Part shown: one piece after another, positions 5,001 through 28,916 of the stretch | Layout of the letters: every line of letters begins with the position of its first letter | Position numbering within the stretch: the first letter of the stretch is position 1 | DNA from: a virus | IMG/VR virus record: IMGVR_UViG_3300026292_000014 | Coordinates: 1 to 35,383 of that record | Direction: 5' to 3' (one strand) | Length of the DNA: 35,383 nucleotides | Notes under the pieces: generated by a model | What the model was told of the DNA's origin: nothing | Databases searched by the model: none | What the model saw: the letters and a program-made list of their open reading frames with translations, nothing else | Program-made: the position numbers and the translations under genes

Positions 5001-5849
5001 ATGGCTATTACGATAACAAAACCAACTGTAGGTGGTTCTGAGGGAACGTGGGGTGCAACAATTAATACCGCACTTGATACTATAGTAAATGCCGCTAATG
5101 GAACCGCAGGAACTACCGCGCCAAATTTAACGGCTGTAACAATAAATGGTGTTTCTAGTTCTGTAACAGCCCCAGAGCTAGATTTATTGAGCAGTTTAAA
5201 TACATCTGGTAGCGTAATGCAAAGTTTCGTGTTGGAAGATGGTGACGGAACAGAGGTATCTATTACTGAAGGTAAAGAGGTAAAGTTTGTTGAGGGTCAC
5301 GGTATTGATATTAACTGGACTGACACTTCTGACGGAACAGACGCAGACCCTTACGATTTAGAGTTTTCGCTAAAAACCGATATGCGAATAAACAGTAATA
5401 CAGATGTATATACTGGAAATTCTAACGACTATATTCATTACGATACTGACGTAGGTATGCGGTTTTACACAAATAGTGGCGAAGATATGAGGCTTACCGA
5501 TGGCGGTGACTTGCACGTTGACGCAAATATTATTGGTTACTCTACCACTATTTCTGACCAAAGGTTGAAGGGCAACATCAACAAAATAGAAAATGCTTTA
5601 GACAAAGTAATGCAAATTAATGGTTATACTTTTACTTATAATCATGACGGCAAGCAAAGCGCAGGGGTAATAGCTCAAGAAGTTGAAAACATTATGCCAA
5701 GTGCTGTTCAAAGCACTAATTTAGTTTTTAATGAAGATAATGACGTTGAGTTTAAGACAGTGCAATATGATCAGCTTCATGGCTTATTAATTGAAGCAAT
5801 AAAAGAATTAAAAGCGCAAATAGAGGAATTAAAAAATGCCTCTACCTAG
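5001..5849 (+). CDS. Second tail fibre with C-terminal S74 chaperone domain
   Basis: The 282-residue protein begins AITITKPTVGGSEGTWGATI, a common start for phage fibre or collar proteins. From about residue 183 it carries an S74-type domain: SDQRLKGNINKIENALDKVM, SAGVIAQEVENIMPSAVQ, then [19 protein letters not shown] as the terminal coiled helix. It is paralogous at the C-terminus to the protein at 1725, with a different N-terminal part, so the phage carries at least two S74-matured fibres. SD AGGAG is at 4990-4994. The end overlaps the next gene by 14 bases. Confidence 0.8.
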   Translation: MAITITKPTVGGSEGTWGATINTALDTIVNAANGTAGTTAPNLTAVTINGVSSSVTAPELDLLSSLNTSGSVMQSFVLEDGDGTEVSITEGKEVKFVEGHGIDINWTDTSDGTDADPYDLEFSLKTDMRINSNTDVYTGNSNDYIHYDTDVGMRFYTNSGEDMRLTDGGDLHVDANIIGYSTTISDQRLKGNINKIENALDKVMQINGYTFTYNHDGKQSAGVIAQEVENIMPSAVQSTNLVFNEDNDVEFKTVQYDQLHGLLIEAIKELKAQIEELKNAST

Positions 5850-20705: not shown

Positions 20706-21079
20706 TAGACAAGCTGATTGGCCCTGTAAGTGGCATTCTTGATAAGGTGATACCTGATAAGGATCAGGCTGCTAAACTAGCCCATGAGGTCGCTACAATG
20801 GCTGACAAGCACAGTCAGGAGCTTGCACTAGCCCAGCTAGAAATACTTAAAAGTGACGCCAAGGGCAATTGGTTCCAATCGTCGTGGCGTCCACTCATAG
20901 GATGGCTGGGGGGAATAGGGTTAGGTGTGAATTACATCGTCAGCCCAATATGCGCTGGGTTCGGTGTTATTGTTCCGCAAGCTGACATGTCAGTTATGAT
21001 GCCTTTACTTTTAGGAATGCTTGGCATGGCTGGAGCTAGATCATTCGACAAATTAAACAAAACGGATACAAAAAAATGA
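20702..21079 (+). CDS. Holin, GTA-type 3-TM family
   Basis: The 125-residue protein has an N-terminal amphipathic helix (LIGPVSGILDKVIPDKDQAA), a middle helix rich in Ala/Leu and the signature NWFQSSWRPLIGWLGGIGL at 56-74, followed by hydrophobic segments to residue 110. This matches the gene-transfer-agent 3TM holin family, which permeabilises the inner membrane. It is placed between the EF-hand membrane protein and the endolysin, overlapping both by four bases. Charged C-terminus DKLNKTDTKK is usual. Confidence 0.8.
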   Translation: MIDKLIGPVSGILDKVIPDKDQAAKLAHEVATMADKHSQELALAQLEILKSDAKGNWFQSSWRPLIGWLGGIGLGVNYIVSPICAGFGVIVPQADMSVMMPLLLGMLGMAGARSFDKLNKTDTKK

Positions 21080-21552
21080 GTTTTAAATTAGGTAAAAGAA
21101 GTCTTGAAAGATTAGAGGGCGTCGATGAGCGCATGGTTGAAATCGTTAAACTGGCAATCACACTGTCAAAAAATGATTTCACAGTGCTGGAAGGTTTACG
21201 AACCAAAGAACGTCAGGCAGAGTTAGTCAAGGCTGGCAATAGCCAAACGATGAAAAGTAAACATCTAGAAGGTAAGGCTGTGGATCTGGGCGCATACGAT
21301 CCTGTCACTGGCATACGCTGGGAAGAAAACGCATACTTTCCGATTGCTGATGCAATGGCTGAAGCATCTAAAAAACTTGGGATCAAATTGTGCTGGGGGG
21401 CTGCATGGGCCGTTCCAGAGCATCCCTATCCTTACAATTGTGGTGATTGGGATGGTGACATGAAATCATGTTGGAAAGCATACCATGACCTTCGACGTTC
21501 TCAAGGGCGCAGAGGTTTTAACGATATGCCTCATTTTGAATTGATGGACTAA
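21076..21552 (+). CDS. Endolysin, M15-family zinc peptidase (VanY/CwlK-like)
   Basis: The 158-residue protein holds SKH63LEGKAVD70LGAYD, the M15 zinc-binding signature, and H153 in MPHFEL as third ligand. VLEGLRTKERQAELVKAGNS upstream is also typical. Members cleave peptide cross-links or L-Ala-D-Glu bonds in peptidoglycan. No signal peptide is seen, so release depends on the holin just upstream (four-base overlap). Two extra cysteine-bearing loops (LCWGAAW, YNCGDWDGDMKSCW) are usual for phage members. It is the last gene of the rightward late block. Confidence 0.87.
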   Translation: MSFKLGKRSLERLEGVDERMVEIVKLAITLSKNDFTVLEGLRTKERQAELVKAGNSQTMKSKHLEGKAVDLGAYDPVTGIRWEENAYFPIADAMAEASKKLGIKLCWGAAWAVPEHPYPYNCGDWDGDMKSCWKAYHDLRRSQGRRGFNDMPHFELMD

Positions 21553-21571: not shown

Positions 21572-21645
21572 TTGTGTTGGGTGGTGTTCTTTCGGTGTCC
21601 TGTTTCTTGCTCTCACTTGAAACATTGAATTTACCACCCACACGA
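21572..21645. other. Long-range inverted repeat in the convergent junction
   Basis: GTGTTGGGTGGT (21574-21585) pairs with ACCACCCACAC (21633-21643) with one bulged T, and two flanking pairs extend it. The loop is about 45 bases. No T-run follows directly on either strand, so a bidirectional terminator is possible but not clear. Its right arm ends four bases before the parS palindrome. Confidence 0.4.
21601..21624. promoter_or_regulatory. Degenerate second parS-like element
   Basis: TGTTTC at 21601-21606 and GAAACA at 21619-21624 are the outer arms of a parS palindrome, separated by 12 bases in place of 4. The 16-mer ending at 21624 matches the parS consensus at about 12 of 16 positions. Its centre is about 40 bp from the perfect site. 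It could be a weak or decayed site. Confidence 0.3.
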
Positions 21646-21646
21646 T

Positions 21647-21662
21647 TGTTTCACGTGAAACA
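21647..21662. promoter_or_regulatory. parS: Perfect parS (ParB-binding centromere) site
   Basis: TGTTTCACGTGAAACA is a full 16-bp palindrome and is identical to the consensus bacterial chromosomal parS, the loading site for ParB clamps. It is in the convergent intergenic region between the endolysin and the first leftward gene, directly next to that gene's stop codon. No parA or parB is present in the window, so host ParB would be the natural partner. I saw no other perfect copy by eye. Confidence 0.75.
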
Positions 21663-22031
21663 TTATTTGTAATCAGTTGGCTTAACTAACCTGACATTTT
21701 TTCGTGGTAGCCTGTATCGGGTCATCATGTTAATGACCTTTTCAAAAGTAGTATTAAGAACATCAGCTATCTGCATTGGCTCTAAGCCATACTTCAGCAT
21801 CTTGTTTATCATCATACCACGCGGGGAAACTGATATTAGGGGTTTTCTCATTGGCTCCTTTTGTTTAGGTTCTGCCATCCCCAATGCTCTGCGTCGCTCT
21901 ATCTCTTTTTTAGCTTTATTTTTTTTATCTTGCAGTTTCATTAGCATCGACAATTCTTGTTCAGTTGGAGTTCTCCCAAATGTCTGCTTAAAATTGTCAA
22001 ACGAAATGTCTACATCAATTACATTTACCAT
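21663..22031 (-). CDS. Small HTH-like protein next to parS
   Basis: The 122-residue protein has FGRTPTEQELSMLMKLQDKK, a basic helix, then SPRGMMINKMLKYGLEPMQI with ADVLNTTFEKVINMMTRYRL, which has the spacing of a helix-turn-helix (LEPMQIADVLNTTFEKVINM). The ATG at 22031 overlaps the TGA of the upstream gene (TGATG) and AGAAAGGA is upstream. It is the last gene of the leftward operon, and its TAA is followed immediately by the parS palindrome. It may bind DNA; there is no ParB-type CTPase motif. Function unknown. Confidence 0.6.
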   Translation of the reverse strand: MVNVIDVDISFDNFKQTFGRTPTEQELSMLMKLQDKKNKAKKEIERRRALGMAEPKQKEPMRKPLISVSPRGMMINKMLKYGLEPMQIADVLNTTFEKVINMMTRYRLPRKNVRLVKPTDYK

Positions 22032-23237: not shown

Positions 23238-23252
23238 TTGAAAATCCTTTCT

Positions 23253-23268
23253 GGGGGCCGAAGCCCCC
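23253..23268 (-). other. Intercistronic hairpin with C(UUCG)G tetraloop
   Basis: On the minus strand GGGGGC-TTCG-GCCCCC is a perfect six-pair stem closed by the extra-stable C(UUCG)G tetraloop. It begins 6 bases after the stop codon of the upstream gene and its 3' arm directly abuts AGAAAGGA, the ribosome site for the gene at 23237. No T-run follows. Confidence 0.7.
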
Positions 23269-23274
23269 GATTAA

Positions 23275-23766
23275 TTACTTGATGTTGATTAAAGTTCTGG
23301 CGTGTAGGCACTGAATGTTATAACCGCCAGCTAAGATTGTTCTGATATGTACCTTGTGACCAGCTACATCGAAGAAACCTTCCAAGCCATTTGAGTATTC
23401 AACCAATTCAAACTCTGGGATTTCAGTAACTTCTTTTTTCTTCAATGCGTTTGTGATCTGTGCATTACGTCGGTCAATTTTACCTTGAACATTTTTGTAA
23501 GCCATATCTAAGCTGTCTTGCATTGAACGATGTTTAATTATGTTCATCATTGCTTGTGAGCCAAAATAGCTTAGTTCCCAATCCCAAAGTCTTGCATACT
23601 GCGCTCTAGGATGTAGTTCTCCTTTAGAAACTTTTTCTCTAAGCTCTGCACTTTTCTCATCGTACAATCTTGCATAATTTTCTTTTTTATCCTTAACGAA
23701 CTCAACAGCAGAAACGTGCATTTTTTCATCTAGTTCTGCGAACGCTTTATTAATTTGATCTAACAT
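23275..23766 (-). CDS. Unrecognised early protein with own promoter
   Basis: I place the start at ATG 23766, preceded by GAGAAAGGAACCTAAA; the longer frame to 23820 would run through the promoter box. The 163-residue product is mostly helical and charged (DQINKAFAELDEKMHVSAVE, QYARLWDWELSYFGSQAMMN) with a C-terminal strand part (FFDVAGHKVHIRTILAGGYN) ending ARTLINIK. The C-terminal piece looks like a short beta module. No family is recognised. Separate transcription from the box at 23789-23825 is likely. Confidence 0.65.
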   Translation of the reverse strand: MLDQINKAFAELDEKMHVSAVEFVKDKKENYARLYDEKSAELREKVSKGELHPRAQYARLWDWELSYFGSQAMMNIIKHRSMQDSLDMAYKNVQGKIDRRNAQITNALKKKEVTEIPEFELVEYSNGLEGFFDVAGHKVHIRTILAGGYNIQCLHARTLINIK

Positions 23767-23788
23767 TTTAGGTTCCTTTCTCTTTAAC

Positions 23789-23825
23789 CTATAATACATA
23801 TAGTATCTTTTATCAGACATTCAAG
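23789..23825 (-). promoter_or_regulatory. Repeated promoter/operator box, copy A
   Basis: Minus strand reads CTTGAATGTCTGATAAAAG then ATACTATATGTATTATAGG. CTTG to TGTAT is 27 bases. A -35 of TTGAAT with a -10 of TATATG 16 bases on is one reading. The dyad CTATA-TGTAT-TATAG covers the -10. It lies 23 bases upstream of the ATG of the gene at 23766 and shares more than 35 bp of pattern with copies B, C and D. Confidence 0.65.
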
Positions 23826-23834
23826 CTTTTGCAA

Positions 23835-23863
23835 GAAAAAAGTTTAGGGGCCATTACAGCCCC
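23835..23863 (-). terminator. Probable terminator after the DUF6011 gene
   Basis: Minus strand GGGGC-TGTAATG-GCCCC forms a five-pair stem with the gene's TAA stop in the loop, followed within six bases by an ACTTTTTT run. Promoter box A follows straight after, which separates two transcription units. Confidence 0.55.
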
Positions 23864-24693: not shown

Positions 24694-24714
24694 AATTTTT
24701 TCCTTTCTCACTAA

Positions 24715-24753
24715 CATATAATACATATAGGTGCTTTCGTGATACATTGCAAG
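24715..24753 (-). promoter_or_regulatory. Repeated promoter/operator box, copy B
   Basis: Minus strand reads CTTGCAATGTATCACGAAAG then CACCTATATGTATTATATG. CTTG to TGTAT is 28 bases, one more than in other copies. Flanks upstream (CTTGACAAAGCTTG) resemble those of copy A (CTTGCAAAAGCTTG), so A and B are probably duplicates of a longer unit. It lies 22 bases upstream of the ATG at 24693. Confidence 0.62.
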
Positions 24754-24796
24754 CTTTGTCAAGAAAATTATTTTATTTTTTTTCAGGGGGGGTTAC

Positions 24797-25575: not shown

Positions 25576-25608
25576 GAGCAAATCCTTTCTCTAATTTGCT
25601 GGGTGGGT

Positions 25609-25624
25609 GGGGGCCGTAGCCCCC
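25609..25624 (-). other. Intercistronic hairpin with C(UACG)G tetraloop
   Basis: Minus strand GGGGGC-TACG-GCCCCC is a perfect six-pair stem with a UNCG-class tetraloop, preceded by TCAACA as at two other sites. It lies 6 bases after the stop at 25631 and about 20 bases upstream of the SD of the gene at 25575. Confidence 0.7.
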
Positions 25625-25630
25625 TGTTGA

Positions 25631-25987: not shown

Positions 25988-26008
25988 TTTAAAAATTCCT
26001 TTCTGTTT

Positions 26009-26048
26009 CCTATAATATACATATAGGTACTTTTATCAGACATTCAAG
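26009..26048 (-). promoter_or_regulatory. Repeated promoter/operator box, copy C
   Basis: Minus strand reads CTTGAATGTCTGATAAAAG then TACCTATATGTATATTATAG and G. CTTG to TGTAT is 27 bases. The dyad CCTATA-TGTATAT-TATAGG has perfect arms. It is just upstream of the AGAAAGGA site and ATG at 25987. Confidence 0.68.
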
Positions 26049-26262
26049 TATTACATAGAACTTTTTTTAAAAAATTTAATCCTTCAGCAATCCACTGATC
26101 ATATGACAGATGATTTAACCTGTAGACGTAGACACTGTGATCTTGGTAAACCATTTCATCCCCTTCCTTGCCGTTGTCGTAAGTGAAGTAGAAATAACCG
26201 TCCCCCCTGTACAATTGTAGGTGAGGGTTACCGATGGCCCCGATGATTTGAGCGCGGGTCAT
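26044..26262 (-). CDS. Small early protein
   Basis: The 72-residue protein reads MTRAQIIGAIGNPHLQLYRG, then DGYFYFTYDNGKEGDEMVYQ and DHSVYVYRLNHLSYDQWIAE. The fold looks like helix, three strands, helix. It overlaps the upstream gene by four bases (ATGA) and partly overlaps promoter box C at its 3' end. I have seen similar unnamed proteins in phage early regions, often with a YFYFxYDD motif; no function is known to me. Confidence 0.6.
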   Translation of the reverse strand: MTRAQIIGAIGNPHLQLYRGDGYFYFTYDNGKEGDEMVYQDHSVYVYRLNHLSYDQWIAEGLNFLKKVLCNT

Positions 26263-26615: not shown

Positions 26616-26631
26616 GTGAGATCTCCTTTCT

Positions 26632-26648
26632 GGGGGGACACGCCCCCC
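26632..26648 (-). other. Intercistronic GC hairpin
   Basis: Minus strand GGGGGG-CGTGT-CCCCCC, preceded by TCAACA, forms a six-pair stem. The 3' arm directly abuts the AGAAAGGAG site of the gene at 26615. There is no T-run. Same plan as the elements at 23253, 25609 and 26953. Confidence 0.65.
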
Positions 26649-26660
26649 TGTTGAACAGTG

Positions 26661-26936: not shown

Positions 26937-26952
26937 TGTTAGGCTCCTTTCT

Positions 26953-26969
26953 GGGGGGACTAGCCCCCC
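26953..26969 (-). other. Intercistronic GC hairpin containing a stop codon
   Basis: Minus strand GGGGGG-CTAGT-CCCCCC. The TAG stop of the upstream gene lies in the loop and the last two codons (GGG GGC) form the 5' arm. The 3' arm directly abuts AGAAAGGAG of the next gene. Preceded by TCAACA as at the sister elements. Confidence 0.68.
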
Positions 26970-27157
26970 TGTTGAGTTTCCAATACGACTTCAGCAGCTT
27001 TCTTACTGAGGTCCACTTCTTTAGCAGTCATTCCTGAAGCTATCTGTTGTGCCATCCTTTCCGCTTCTTTTGACTGTTCGTCTGTTGGTGCTGTTACAGC
27101 TAAAACAAGAGCCACTGTTAATGCATCCCCGTTATTTTCGATTACAAGCTGTTCCAT
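26960..27157 (-). CDS. Small early protein
   Basis: The 65-residue protein reads EQLVIENNGDALTVALVLAV, APTDEQSKEAERMAQQIASG and MTAKEVDLSKKAAEVVLETQ. It has a strand/helix start and an amphipathic helical remainder. It starts at ATG 27157 after AAAAAGGGA, directly behind promoter box D, as the first gene of a leftward unit. The stop codon is in the loop of a GC hairpin. Function unknown. Confidence 0.6.
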   Translation of the reverse strand: MEQLVIENNGDALTVALVLAVTAPTDEQSKEAERMAQQIASGMTAKEVDLSKKAAEVVLETQQGG

Positions 27158-27175
27158 AAAAATCCCTTTTTGTTT

Positions 27176-27215
27176 CTTATAATATACATATAATCATTTT
27201 TGTGAGACATACAAG
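27176..27215 (-). promoter_or_regulatory. Repeated promoter/operator box, copy D
   Basis: Minus strand reads CTTGTATGTCTCACAAAAAT then GATTATATGTATATTATAAG. CTTG to TGTAT is 27 bases. The dyad is TTATA-TGTATAT-TATAA: both arms have changed together compared with copy C (CCTATA/TATAGG). Located 19 bases before the ATG at 27157. The region 27216-27297 beyond it is AT-rich and holds the rusA leader. Confidence 0.66.
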
Positions 27216-27297
27216 GGGGGGATAGAAAAAAAATTGTAAATAATTAAAAAAAATGTAACGACTGAGTGCAGTTTTTACACAAATCTAAGGAGATCGT

Positions 27298-27747
27298 GTG
27301 ATCGAACTAACAAAAGTAGAGATCGAACTGTCGGGTCAGCCTGTTGGTAAAGGGCGTCCACGGTTCACTAAAACGGGCCATGCGTACACCCCGCATAAAA
27401 CAAAAGAATATGAGCGAAGGTTACACGCGGCTGCTTGGGGGCAGATGGTCAAACAGAATGTTGATCAAACAGAACGTCCCGTGGTTCTGGAGATTGTAGC
27501 ATTCATGGAGATCCCCAAATCGTGGCCCAAAGTAAAAAGATTAGAAGCTGAATATGGGGCTATTTCTCACACATCTACCCCTGACTTAGATAATATCGTC
27601 AAATGCGTTGCAGACGGGCTTATACACACCGTCTATGCGGATGATAAACAAATTGTGTCCATCAAGGCACAGAAACGTTTCTGCCACCCAGAGCGCGGTC
27701 CAGCCCTCTACGTGTCGGTTTCTTGGACGGATGAAGTCAAAGAATAG
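27298..27747 (+). CDS. rusA: RusA-family Holliday junction resolvase
   Basis: The 149-residue protein has the RusA start (LSGQPVGKGRPRFTKTGHAY), then STPD96LD98NIVKCVADGLIHT and VYADDKQIV, with the conserved acidic residues that hold the metal. RusA cleaves four-way junctions during recombination and packaging. The start is a GTG, 5 bases after AAGGAGA-type SD. It is the only rightward gene within the leftward block, and its 3' end overlaps the end of the convergent HNH gene by 40 bases. Transcription probably starts in the AT-rich leader at 27216-27290. Confidence 0.87.
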   Translation: MIELTKVEIELSGQPVGKGRPRFTKTGHAYTPHKTKEYERRLHAAAWGQMVKQNVDQTERPVVLEIVAFMEIPKSWPKVKRLEAEYGAISHTSTPDLDNIVKCVADGLIHTVYADDKQIVSIKAQKRFCHPERGPALYVSVSWTDEVKE

Positions 27748-28055
27748 GAATAGTCGGGTCCGTAAGCTTCACGCCATTTCAAAGGACTTTTGTGTATCGC
27801 CAGTTTAGATTTGTCGGTTCCCCAAAGCTGTTGGTGGTGGTCATCACATAGCGGAATAGCAAGTCGGTCTGAAACTTTTCTGGATGAGAACCTGTCGTGT
27901 ATCGGGTGATGCGCTGTAGTTGGGGATCGTTGAACCATCCCAAACCGTTTGCAAACGCAACATGGTAATTCACGGATTTTCTGTAGGAATTTTTCATCCT
28001 TTTTGTCCTTTGATTTTTTTAATCCAAGCGGTGGCTTGTTGCTCAAATTACTCAC
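27708..28055 (-). CDS. Putative HNH-type endonuclease (DUF968-like)
   Basis: The 115-residue protein begins at GTG 28055, overlapping the preceding stop (GTGA). It has a basic N-terminus, then LPC32CVC35KRFGM, SPTTAH49HPIHDRFSSRKV, and IPLC70DDHHQQLWGTDKSKL. Two CxxC-like knuckles around AHH and a CxxHH loop fit a small His-Cys/HNH nuclease used in phage recombination or packaging. It lies in the recombination set next to rusA. Activity is an inference from motifs. Confidence 0.65.
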   Translation of the reverse strand: MSNLSNKPPLGLKKSKDKKDEKFLQKIRELPCCVCKRFGMVQRSPTTAHHPIHDRFSSRKVSDRLAIPLCDDHHQQLWGTDKSKLAIHKSPLKWREAYGPDYSYSLTSSVQETDT

Positions 28056-28540
28056 GGATCGTACTTATCAATTTTGTTTGGATCGTGCATGATCTCAGCT
28101 TCCAGATCAATAGCAAGCAGTTTAAATTCTTTTACGGGGTAGTAGAAAACAATCTCCCTATCACTTTCTGGGTTGCGCCTGTTCTTACTTATCGGGCTAA
28201 CCCTGATGTCCCTATGTGCGATTATATCTTCGATGTTGGCGTATCGAACTTGATCCAGCCAGTTGACTACAAACAAGCACGGCAAATTTAAAACAGGATA
28301 CAGCGTCTGCCAGTTTTGAATTTTGGTGTAACTAATCATGGCATCAGGGAAACTATTGGAGTAGCAATTCAATCGACGGATTTCTACTAGGGCTGTGGGT
28401 CTACCGTCCCGATGTAGGAACCCATCGAAGCTGGCTTTCTTTTCCAGAGATCTCACGCTTTCACATTTCCATTTTTTCTCTAAAAATTTGAGAACACGTT
28501 CTTCATGTTCTTGATCACTCTTATTCACGTAAAGGGTCAT
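28052..28540 (-). CDS. Putative PD-(D/E)XK-like nuclease
   Basis: Start at ATG 28540 with AGAAGGA upstream (a GTG/other start at 28579 would lie deep in the neighbour). The 162-residue product has KASFD39GFLHRDGRPTALVE53IRR, the D-x(n)-ExK core of PD-(D/E)XK nucleases with Arg in place of Lys, followed by strands and helices including YPVLNLPCLFVVNWLDQV. It is in a recombination cluster, so DNA trimming or resolution is a reasonable role. The ExR variation makes activity uncertain. Confidence 0.6.
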   Translation of the reverse strand: MTLYVNKSDQEHEERVLKFLEKKWKCESVRSLEKKASFDGFLHRDGRPTALVEIRRLNCYSNSFPDAMISYTKIQNWQTLYPVLNLPCLFVVNWLDQVRYANIEDIIAHRDIRVSPISKNRRNPESDREIVFYYPVKEFKLLAIDLEAEIMHDPNKIDKYDP

Positions 28541-28916
28541 ATCCAATTCCTTCTGCAAGTTTCTGCATGGCAAGCTCAAAGTATTTCGTAAATTCTTGTT
28601 GGGTCATTTTATCGAAGCGGATACTGTCAGGGATGTTGACTAGCTCCCCGTTCAGTCCAGACAACTTGATACGCACGTAGCCACAAGCAATCTTTAATTC
28701 ATCGTGTAGGTGATGCTCTGTAGGCCACTTCCCTGTATCACGGGCCACATTTCGAAGCGTGGACCAATACAAATTATGGTGGGGGTTGGATCTCTTTCCC
28801 GCTGCTTTTAAATTAAACAGTTGACCTTCGGGAAAATCTTCCATGCGTTCTGCGTCGTATTTTGTGACGGGCTGTAGTCGCCCATCACTTAGTTCCATTT
28901 GCAAATTGATAGCCAT
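28521..28916 (-). CDS. DUF1367 / NinB-like recombination-associated protein
   Basis: The ATG at 28916 shares its A with the SSB stop (TGATG); a TTG at 28919 is possible. The 131-residue product has NPHHNLYWSTLRNVARDTGK, WPTEHHLHDELKIACGYVRI and PDSIRFDKMTQQEFTKYFEL, the pattern of DUF1367-type proteins found between SSB and nucleases in phage ninB-like regions. A role in recombination is inferred from the family and place. Confidence 0.65.
   Translation of the reverse strand: MAINLQMELSDGRLQPVTKYDAERMEDFPEGQLFNLKAAGKRSNPHHNLYWSTLRNVARDTGKWPTEHHLHDELKIACGYVRIKLSGLNGELVNIPDSIRFDKMTQQEFTKYFELAMQKLAEGIGYDPLRE

Follow-up and report, generated by a model that had tools for sequence, protein, structure and literature searches.

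The 16-bp palindrome TGTTTCACGTGAAACA at positions 21647-21662 of the window, which is the whole stretch of viral DNA analysed here, was found to match the bacterial chromosomal parS consensus, as used in PMC10197239, with 0 mismatches. We consider it somewhat probable that this site is an orphan host-type centromere, which would load the ParB protein of the host on the phage DNA.

The parS site and the phage that carries it

With 35,383 bases, the record is a linear virus contig from IMG/VR, and its ends may be missing. When up to 3 mismatches were allowed, the palindrome was the sole match anywhere in the window, and from the base composition about 1e-5 exact copies are estimated per 35 kb. 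By its letters the single-copy element, which has no strand, would class as a chromosomal-type parS. Domain searches for ParB_N, HTH_ParB and ParA/CbiA detected none of the three in the record, whose ends may be absent. The cognate ParB and ParA were thus both undetected, and no complete parABS system was found in the record. The idea that the site is read by a ParB of the phage itself or by a lone ParB HTH was rejected, since neither was found in the window. The original prediction had described a base-for-base parS consensus on a phage genome without parA and parB, and on both points our analysis agreed with it.

The window encodes portal, scaffold, capsid, holin, endolysin and tail-fibre proteins, together with a RusA resolvase, a Sak-like annealing protein, an SSB, an O-like initiator and a terminase. 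No integrase was recognised among its genes. The C-termini encoded by the genes at 1725-2954 and 5001-5849 match the same set of tail-fibre families, and the two genes perhaps code for duplicated or alternative receptor-binding proteins. The leftward block contains four 68-nt repeats with a TATAATACATATA-like core (23773-23840, 24700-24767, 25996-26063 and 27163-27230), which are probably early promoters. Four repeated G/C-rich hairpins (GGGGGG...CCCCCC) were observed in the gaps of the same block at 23244-23275, 25599-25630, 26623-26654 and 26944-26975, and these are terminator-like.

The capsid search of IMG/VR returned 365 relatives. The best capsid or portal matches among cultured or named phages were below 50% identity and mostly marine or environmental; they were scattered across several bacterial groups, and an assignment of the host by this route was rejected. 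The GTDB genomes were also discarded as a guide to the host, as just two MAG contigs with related capsid genes matched, both possibly mis-binned, and neither genome had parS at up to 1 mismatch. In the class of one related MAG, the exact 16-mer was present in 24 of 143 genomes and the reversed control in 0. No marker was found that ties the record to a bacterium using TGTTTCACGTGAAACA as its parS.

The junction behind the endolysin

The parS site is located in a 110-bp gap. On one side lies the endolysin gene (21076-21552, + strand; phrog_465, E 1.2e-44), the last gene of the rightward virion and lysis block. On the other side is a 122-aa ORF (21663-22031, - strand), the last of the leftward block, which has homologs of 88-89% identity in the relatives that share the junction, and gave no PHROG match and no Pfam match above the cut-off. 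The stop codon of this ORF starts at 21663 and abuts parS, which stands between the stop codon and a conserved hairpin at 21574-21643. The hairpin, GTGTTGGGTGGT...ACCACCCACAC, takes up most of the gap, with its arms at 21574-21585 and 21633-21643 and the inner arms TGTTTC and GAAACA at 21601-21606 and 21619-21624, respectively. When its RNA fold was compared with shuffled sequences, z was -4.0 on the + strand and -2.1 on the - strand. The hairpin was present in all four junctions compared, with and without the 16-mer, and it probably serves as terminator for the convergent junction. The junction was also searched for known structured RNAs and tRNAs, and none was found. The gap had been described as the only convergent one, which did not hold up: a second lies at 27748-28051, where RusA (+, 27298-27747) faces a leftward ORF (28052-28579).

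The place directly after the stop codon of the leftward gene and before the hairpin would also suit an extra hairpin or terminator element, in which the palindrome acts within the RNA, where the leftward transcript ends. We regard this as highly unlikely, because the stem is A+T-rich and has no U-tract of its own, the neighbouring hairpin exists in relatives without the palindrome, and a terminator does not need the exact letters of parS.

The original prediction had proposed a scan of related phages for the 16-mer at the same junction, and had named its absence from close relatives with that junction as one observation that would refute the interpretation. For the lineage of this phage, absence is what was found. 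At up to 2 mismatches, parS was detected in 0 of 80 capsid-related loci and in 0 of 50 whole relative records. The same junction was found in five contigs only, which represent three distinct versions (L168, L130 and L167), and the site is absent in all three. These junctions align with the window through the hairpin and both flanking genes. The block that is absent with respect to the window is 16 bp long in L168 and 17 bp in L130 and L167, a difference that leaves the coding sequence and the hairpin intact. Based on the site-free junctions and the two counts, parS as a family trait of the window's own phage group was rejected; conservation of the site among the relatives of the element, as looked for in a hijack like that of SGI1, is not observed.

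Since the junctions of the relatives align throughout and lack exactly that block, the comparison indicates that parS is either a discrete gain in the window or a precise loss elsewhere. The palindrome is flanked by ATT...ATT, and a deletion between them would give exactly the L167 junction (CGATTATTTG), which would make a loss of parS in the relatives by slippage possible. Gain is the simpler reading. The hairpins of the window and L168 are almost the same, and provided that the two are sisters at the locus, a gain takes fewer steps than a loss. The parS of the window is recent or patchy.

A gain might have been a neutral local mutation, in which template switching at the neighbouring hairpin built the palindrome and its identity to parS is coincidental. 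Most of the half-sites are available in the inner arms TGTTTC/GAAACA, the hairpin 23 bp leftward carries TGTTTC and CACTTGAAACATT, and the 9-mer TGAAACATT is common to the hairpin and to the insert with its right flank. The absence of the site from the relatives is also what a neutral event predicts. However, the central ACG is present in no local copy, and at least one more change is required in each templated version to obtain all 16 letters. In the relatives, perfect palindromes of 16 bp or longer are rare, with about 6 in 1.19 Mb, and therefore no general palindrome-making process is at work; on the same count, the idea that long palindromes are generally in excess among these phages was rejected. 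In addition, viral contigs are rich in this exact palindrome and not in its close variants. Taken together, we hold a neutral origin to be rather unlikely.

The 16-mer in other virus contigs

In a scan of IMG/VR, the exact TGTTTCACGTGAAACA was found in at least 120 viral stretches, whereas control palindromes of the same composition gave 1 (reversed), 5 (arm-swapped) and 13 matches (only the centre changed). Chance is a poor explanation for the 16-mer in viral contigs as a class, and for the class the claim that a chance match is very unlikely was borne out. Of 100 parS-positive contigs tested, only 4 had a ParB_N, and one broad terminase profile alone detected TerL in 23 or more of the 50 longest. 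Many of these contigs are therefore true phage DNA without ParB, with the main caveat that some of them, and the short ones in particular, may be partial or come from a chromosome. In three contigs without ParB (L017, 2657-3444; L044, 10535-11462; L053, 240-961), 3-5 exact parS sites form an array near a distantly related terminase of about 29% identity.

A random exact match or an assembly error was considered for the window itself, as the site is known from one contig only and is not conserved, and comparable control palindromes do give 1-13 exact matches per collection. Against this, 86 of the 120 parS-positive matches listed were without a relative of the terminase of the terL clade, and the top control (13) explains at most about 15% of these 86. 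Moreover, the site forms a clean block of its own length beside otherwise alignable sequence. We find a random match or an error very unlikely.

When the parS-positive contigs were compared with each other, many had parS just upstream of the gene for the large terminase subunit, terL. This clade of marine phages (L120, L255-L333) was gathered by a terminase search and not by parS. Since the terminase used as query was taken from a parS-positive contig, parS did determine the choice of the clade, but not that of its members. In the 300 bp upstream of terL, an exact parS was found in 51 of 71 contigs and a parS with up to 2 mismatches in 63 of 71, mostly 27-92 bp upstream of the gene. Three control palindromes gave 0 matches within 2 mismatches in the same 300 bp of the 71 contigs. 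Across 15 dereplicated upstream regions, the parS columns were 97% conserved, compared to 48% in the 40 bp to the left and 47% in the 25 bp to the right. In 24 of 80 loci of the clade, two sites were observed at a spacing of 23-25 bp, and one site per pair is the symmetric variant TGTTCCACGTGGAACA. No ParB_N was found in 17 longer contigs of the clade and no HTH_ParB in its longer contigs. In the clade's cultured or named relatives HTVC027P, HTVC023P, 023Pt_psg01 and DSL-LC04, whose TerL is 56-64% identical, there was no parS near terL.

The conservation of parS against diverged flanks can be taken as stronger evidence than the site counts, and the alignments point to a clear selection for an orphan parS in the terL clade. 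At this locus the clade and the window are not close relatives. Judged by these upstream regions, the clade shows that phage genomes can have an orphan parS as a selected feature.

Proposed function and known systems

ParB acts as a CTP-dependent clamp, which is loaded onto DNA at parS and then slides off the site (PMC8367383). A perfect site should load the standard chromosomal ParB, provided that the host of the phage has one. We propose that the host chromosomal ParB would load at the phage parS during infection, and that the loaded clamp would close and slide over the neighbouring phage DNA. The phage genome would thereby gain the ParA gradient of the host and the recruitment of SMC/condensin. 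The most likely benefit would be that the phage genome inside the cell is positioned and shared out in a slow or carrier-type infection, which is favoured because no integrase was recognised; this purpose is less certain than the loading. The organisation of replicated phage DNA before packaging would be the next option, with condensin recruitment and titration as further candidate gains. Points against a hijack of the host system are that the window has a single site, that this site is not adjacent to terL, that it comes from one assembled contig and that the cultured or named relatives of the terL clade had no parS near terL. The original interpretation, that the phage could recruit host ParB to its own DNA, gains from the perfect parS, the lack of ParA and ParB, the excess in the class and the selection in the terL clade, and loses the conservation in the phage's own relatives.

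The site might instead be a decoy that titrates the host ParB or perturbs host segregation, with no role in the partition of the phage. Phage DNA that carries parS and replicates to many copies would compete for ParB, and SGI1 uses such competition to stabilise itself and also to destabilise its helper (PMC10954446). However, a single site per genome offers little capacity for titration and no companion factor was recognised, so we consider a decoy unlikely.

Beyond the window, we tentatively suggest that many uncultivated marine phages might repeatedly and independently acquire the centromere of the host chromosome as a discrete unit of about 16 bp and use the host ParB, with its clamp, the ParA gradient and SMC loading, for positioning, sharing or organising their genomes. 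The terL clade would then represent the fixed, often paired state and the window a fresh acquisition. If phages load the host ParB, phage development would be coupled to segregation and SMC loading, and for slow-growing marine bacteria the carrier state of infection would gain a concrete, testable mechanism. The junctions with and without parS are a natural pair, and the terL clade with its conserved site is the better testing ground. As a phenomenon, orphan parS sites of host type in phages are real enough to merit a test, the function of the window's site being putative, and viruses may borrow the chromosome-segregation machine of their hosts. The hijack of a partition system via an orphan centromere is already documented for SGI1 with the IncC plasmid, and no papers on phages borrowing the parABS of the host chromosome were found in the open-licence literature.

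The bacterial chromosomal parABS systems have a 16-bp site identical to that of the window. In contrast to them, the window is a phage record without ParA and ParB that would depend on host proteins, and its site is not near a chromosome origin. The terL clade has the same 16-mer in common with the window, also on virus contigs without ParB. There, the site is conserved and often paired, whereas in the window it is single, placed behind the endolysin and absent from the relatives. The phage-plasmids P1 and N15 code for their cognate Par proteins and rely on centromere sequences of their own. They resemble the window as phage DNA that carries a centromere, but the window record encodes no Par proteins. 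SGI1 has two parS mimics and both borrows and disrupts the parABS of IncC plasmids (PMC10954446). It is similar in that orphan centromere mimics on a mobile element borrow the ParAB of another replicon (PMC10954446), and the window, too, carries a parS mimic on an element without ParAB. In SGI1, a plasmid system is borrowed with two sites and the helper protein Sci, as was shown by experiment (PMC10954446), whereas the window has one site and its apparent target would be the system of the host chromosome. By analogy, the hijack of the IncC parABS by SGI1 appears to be the closest demonstrated precedent.
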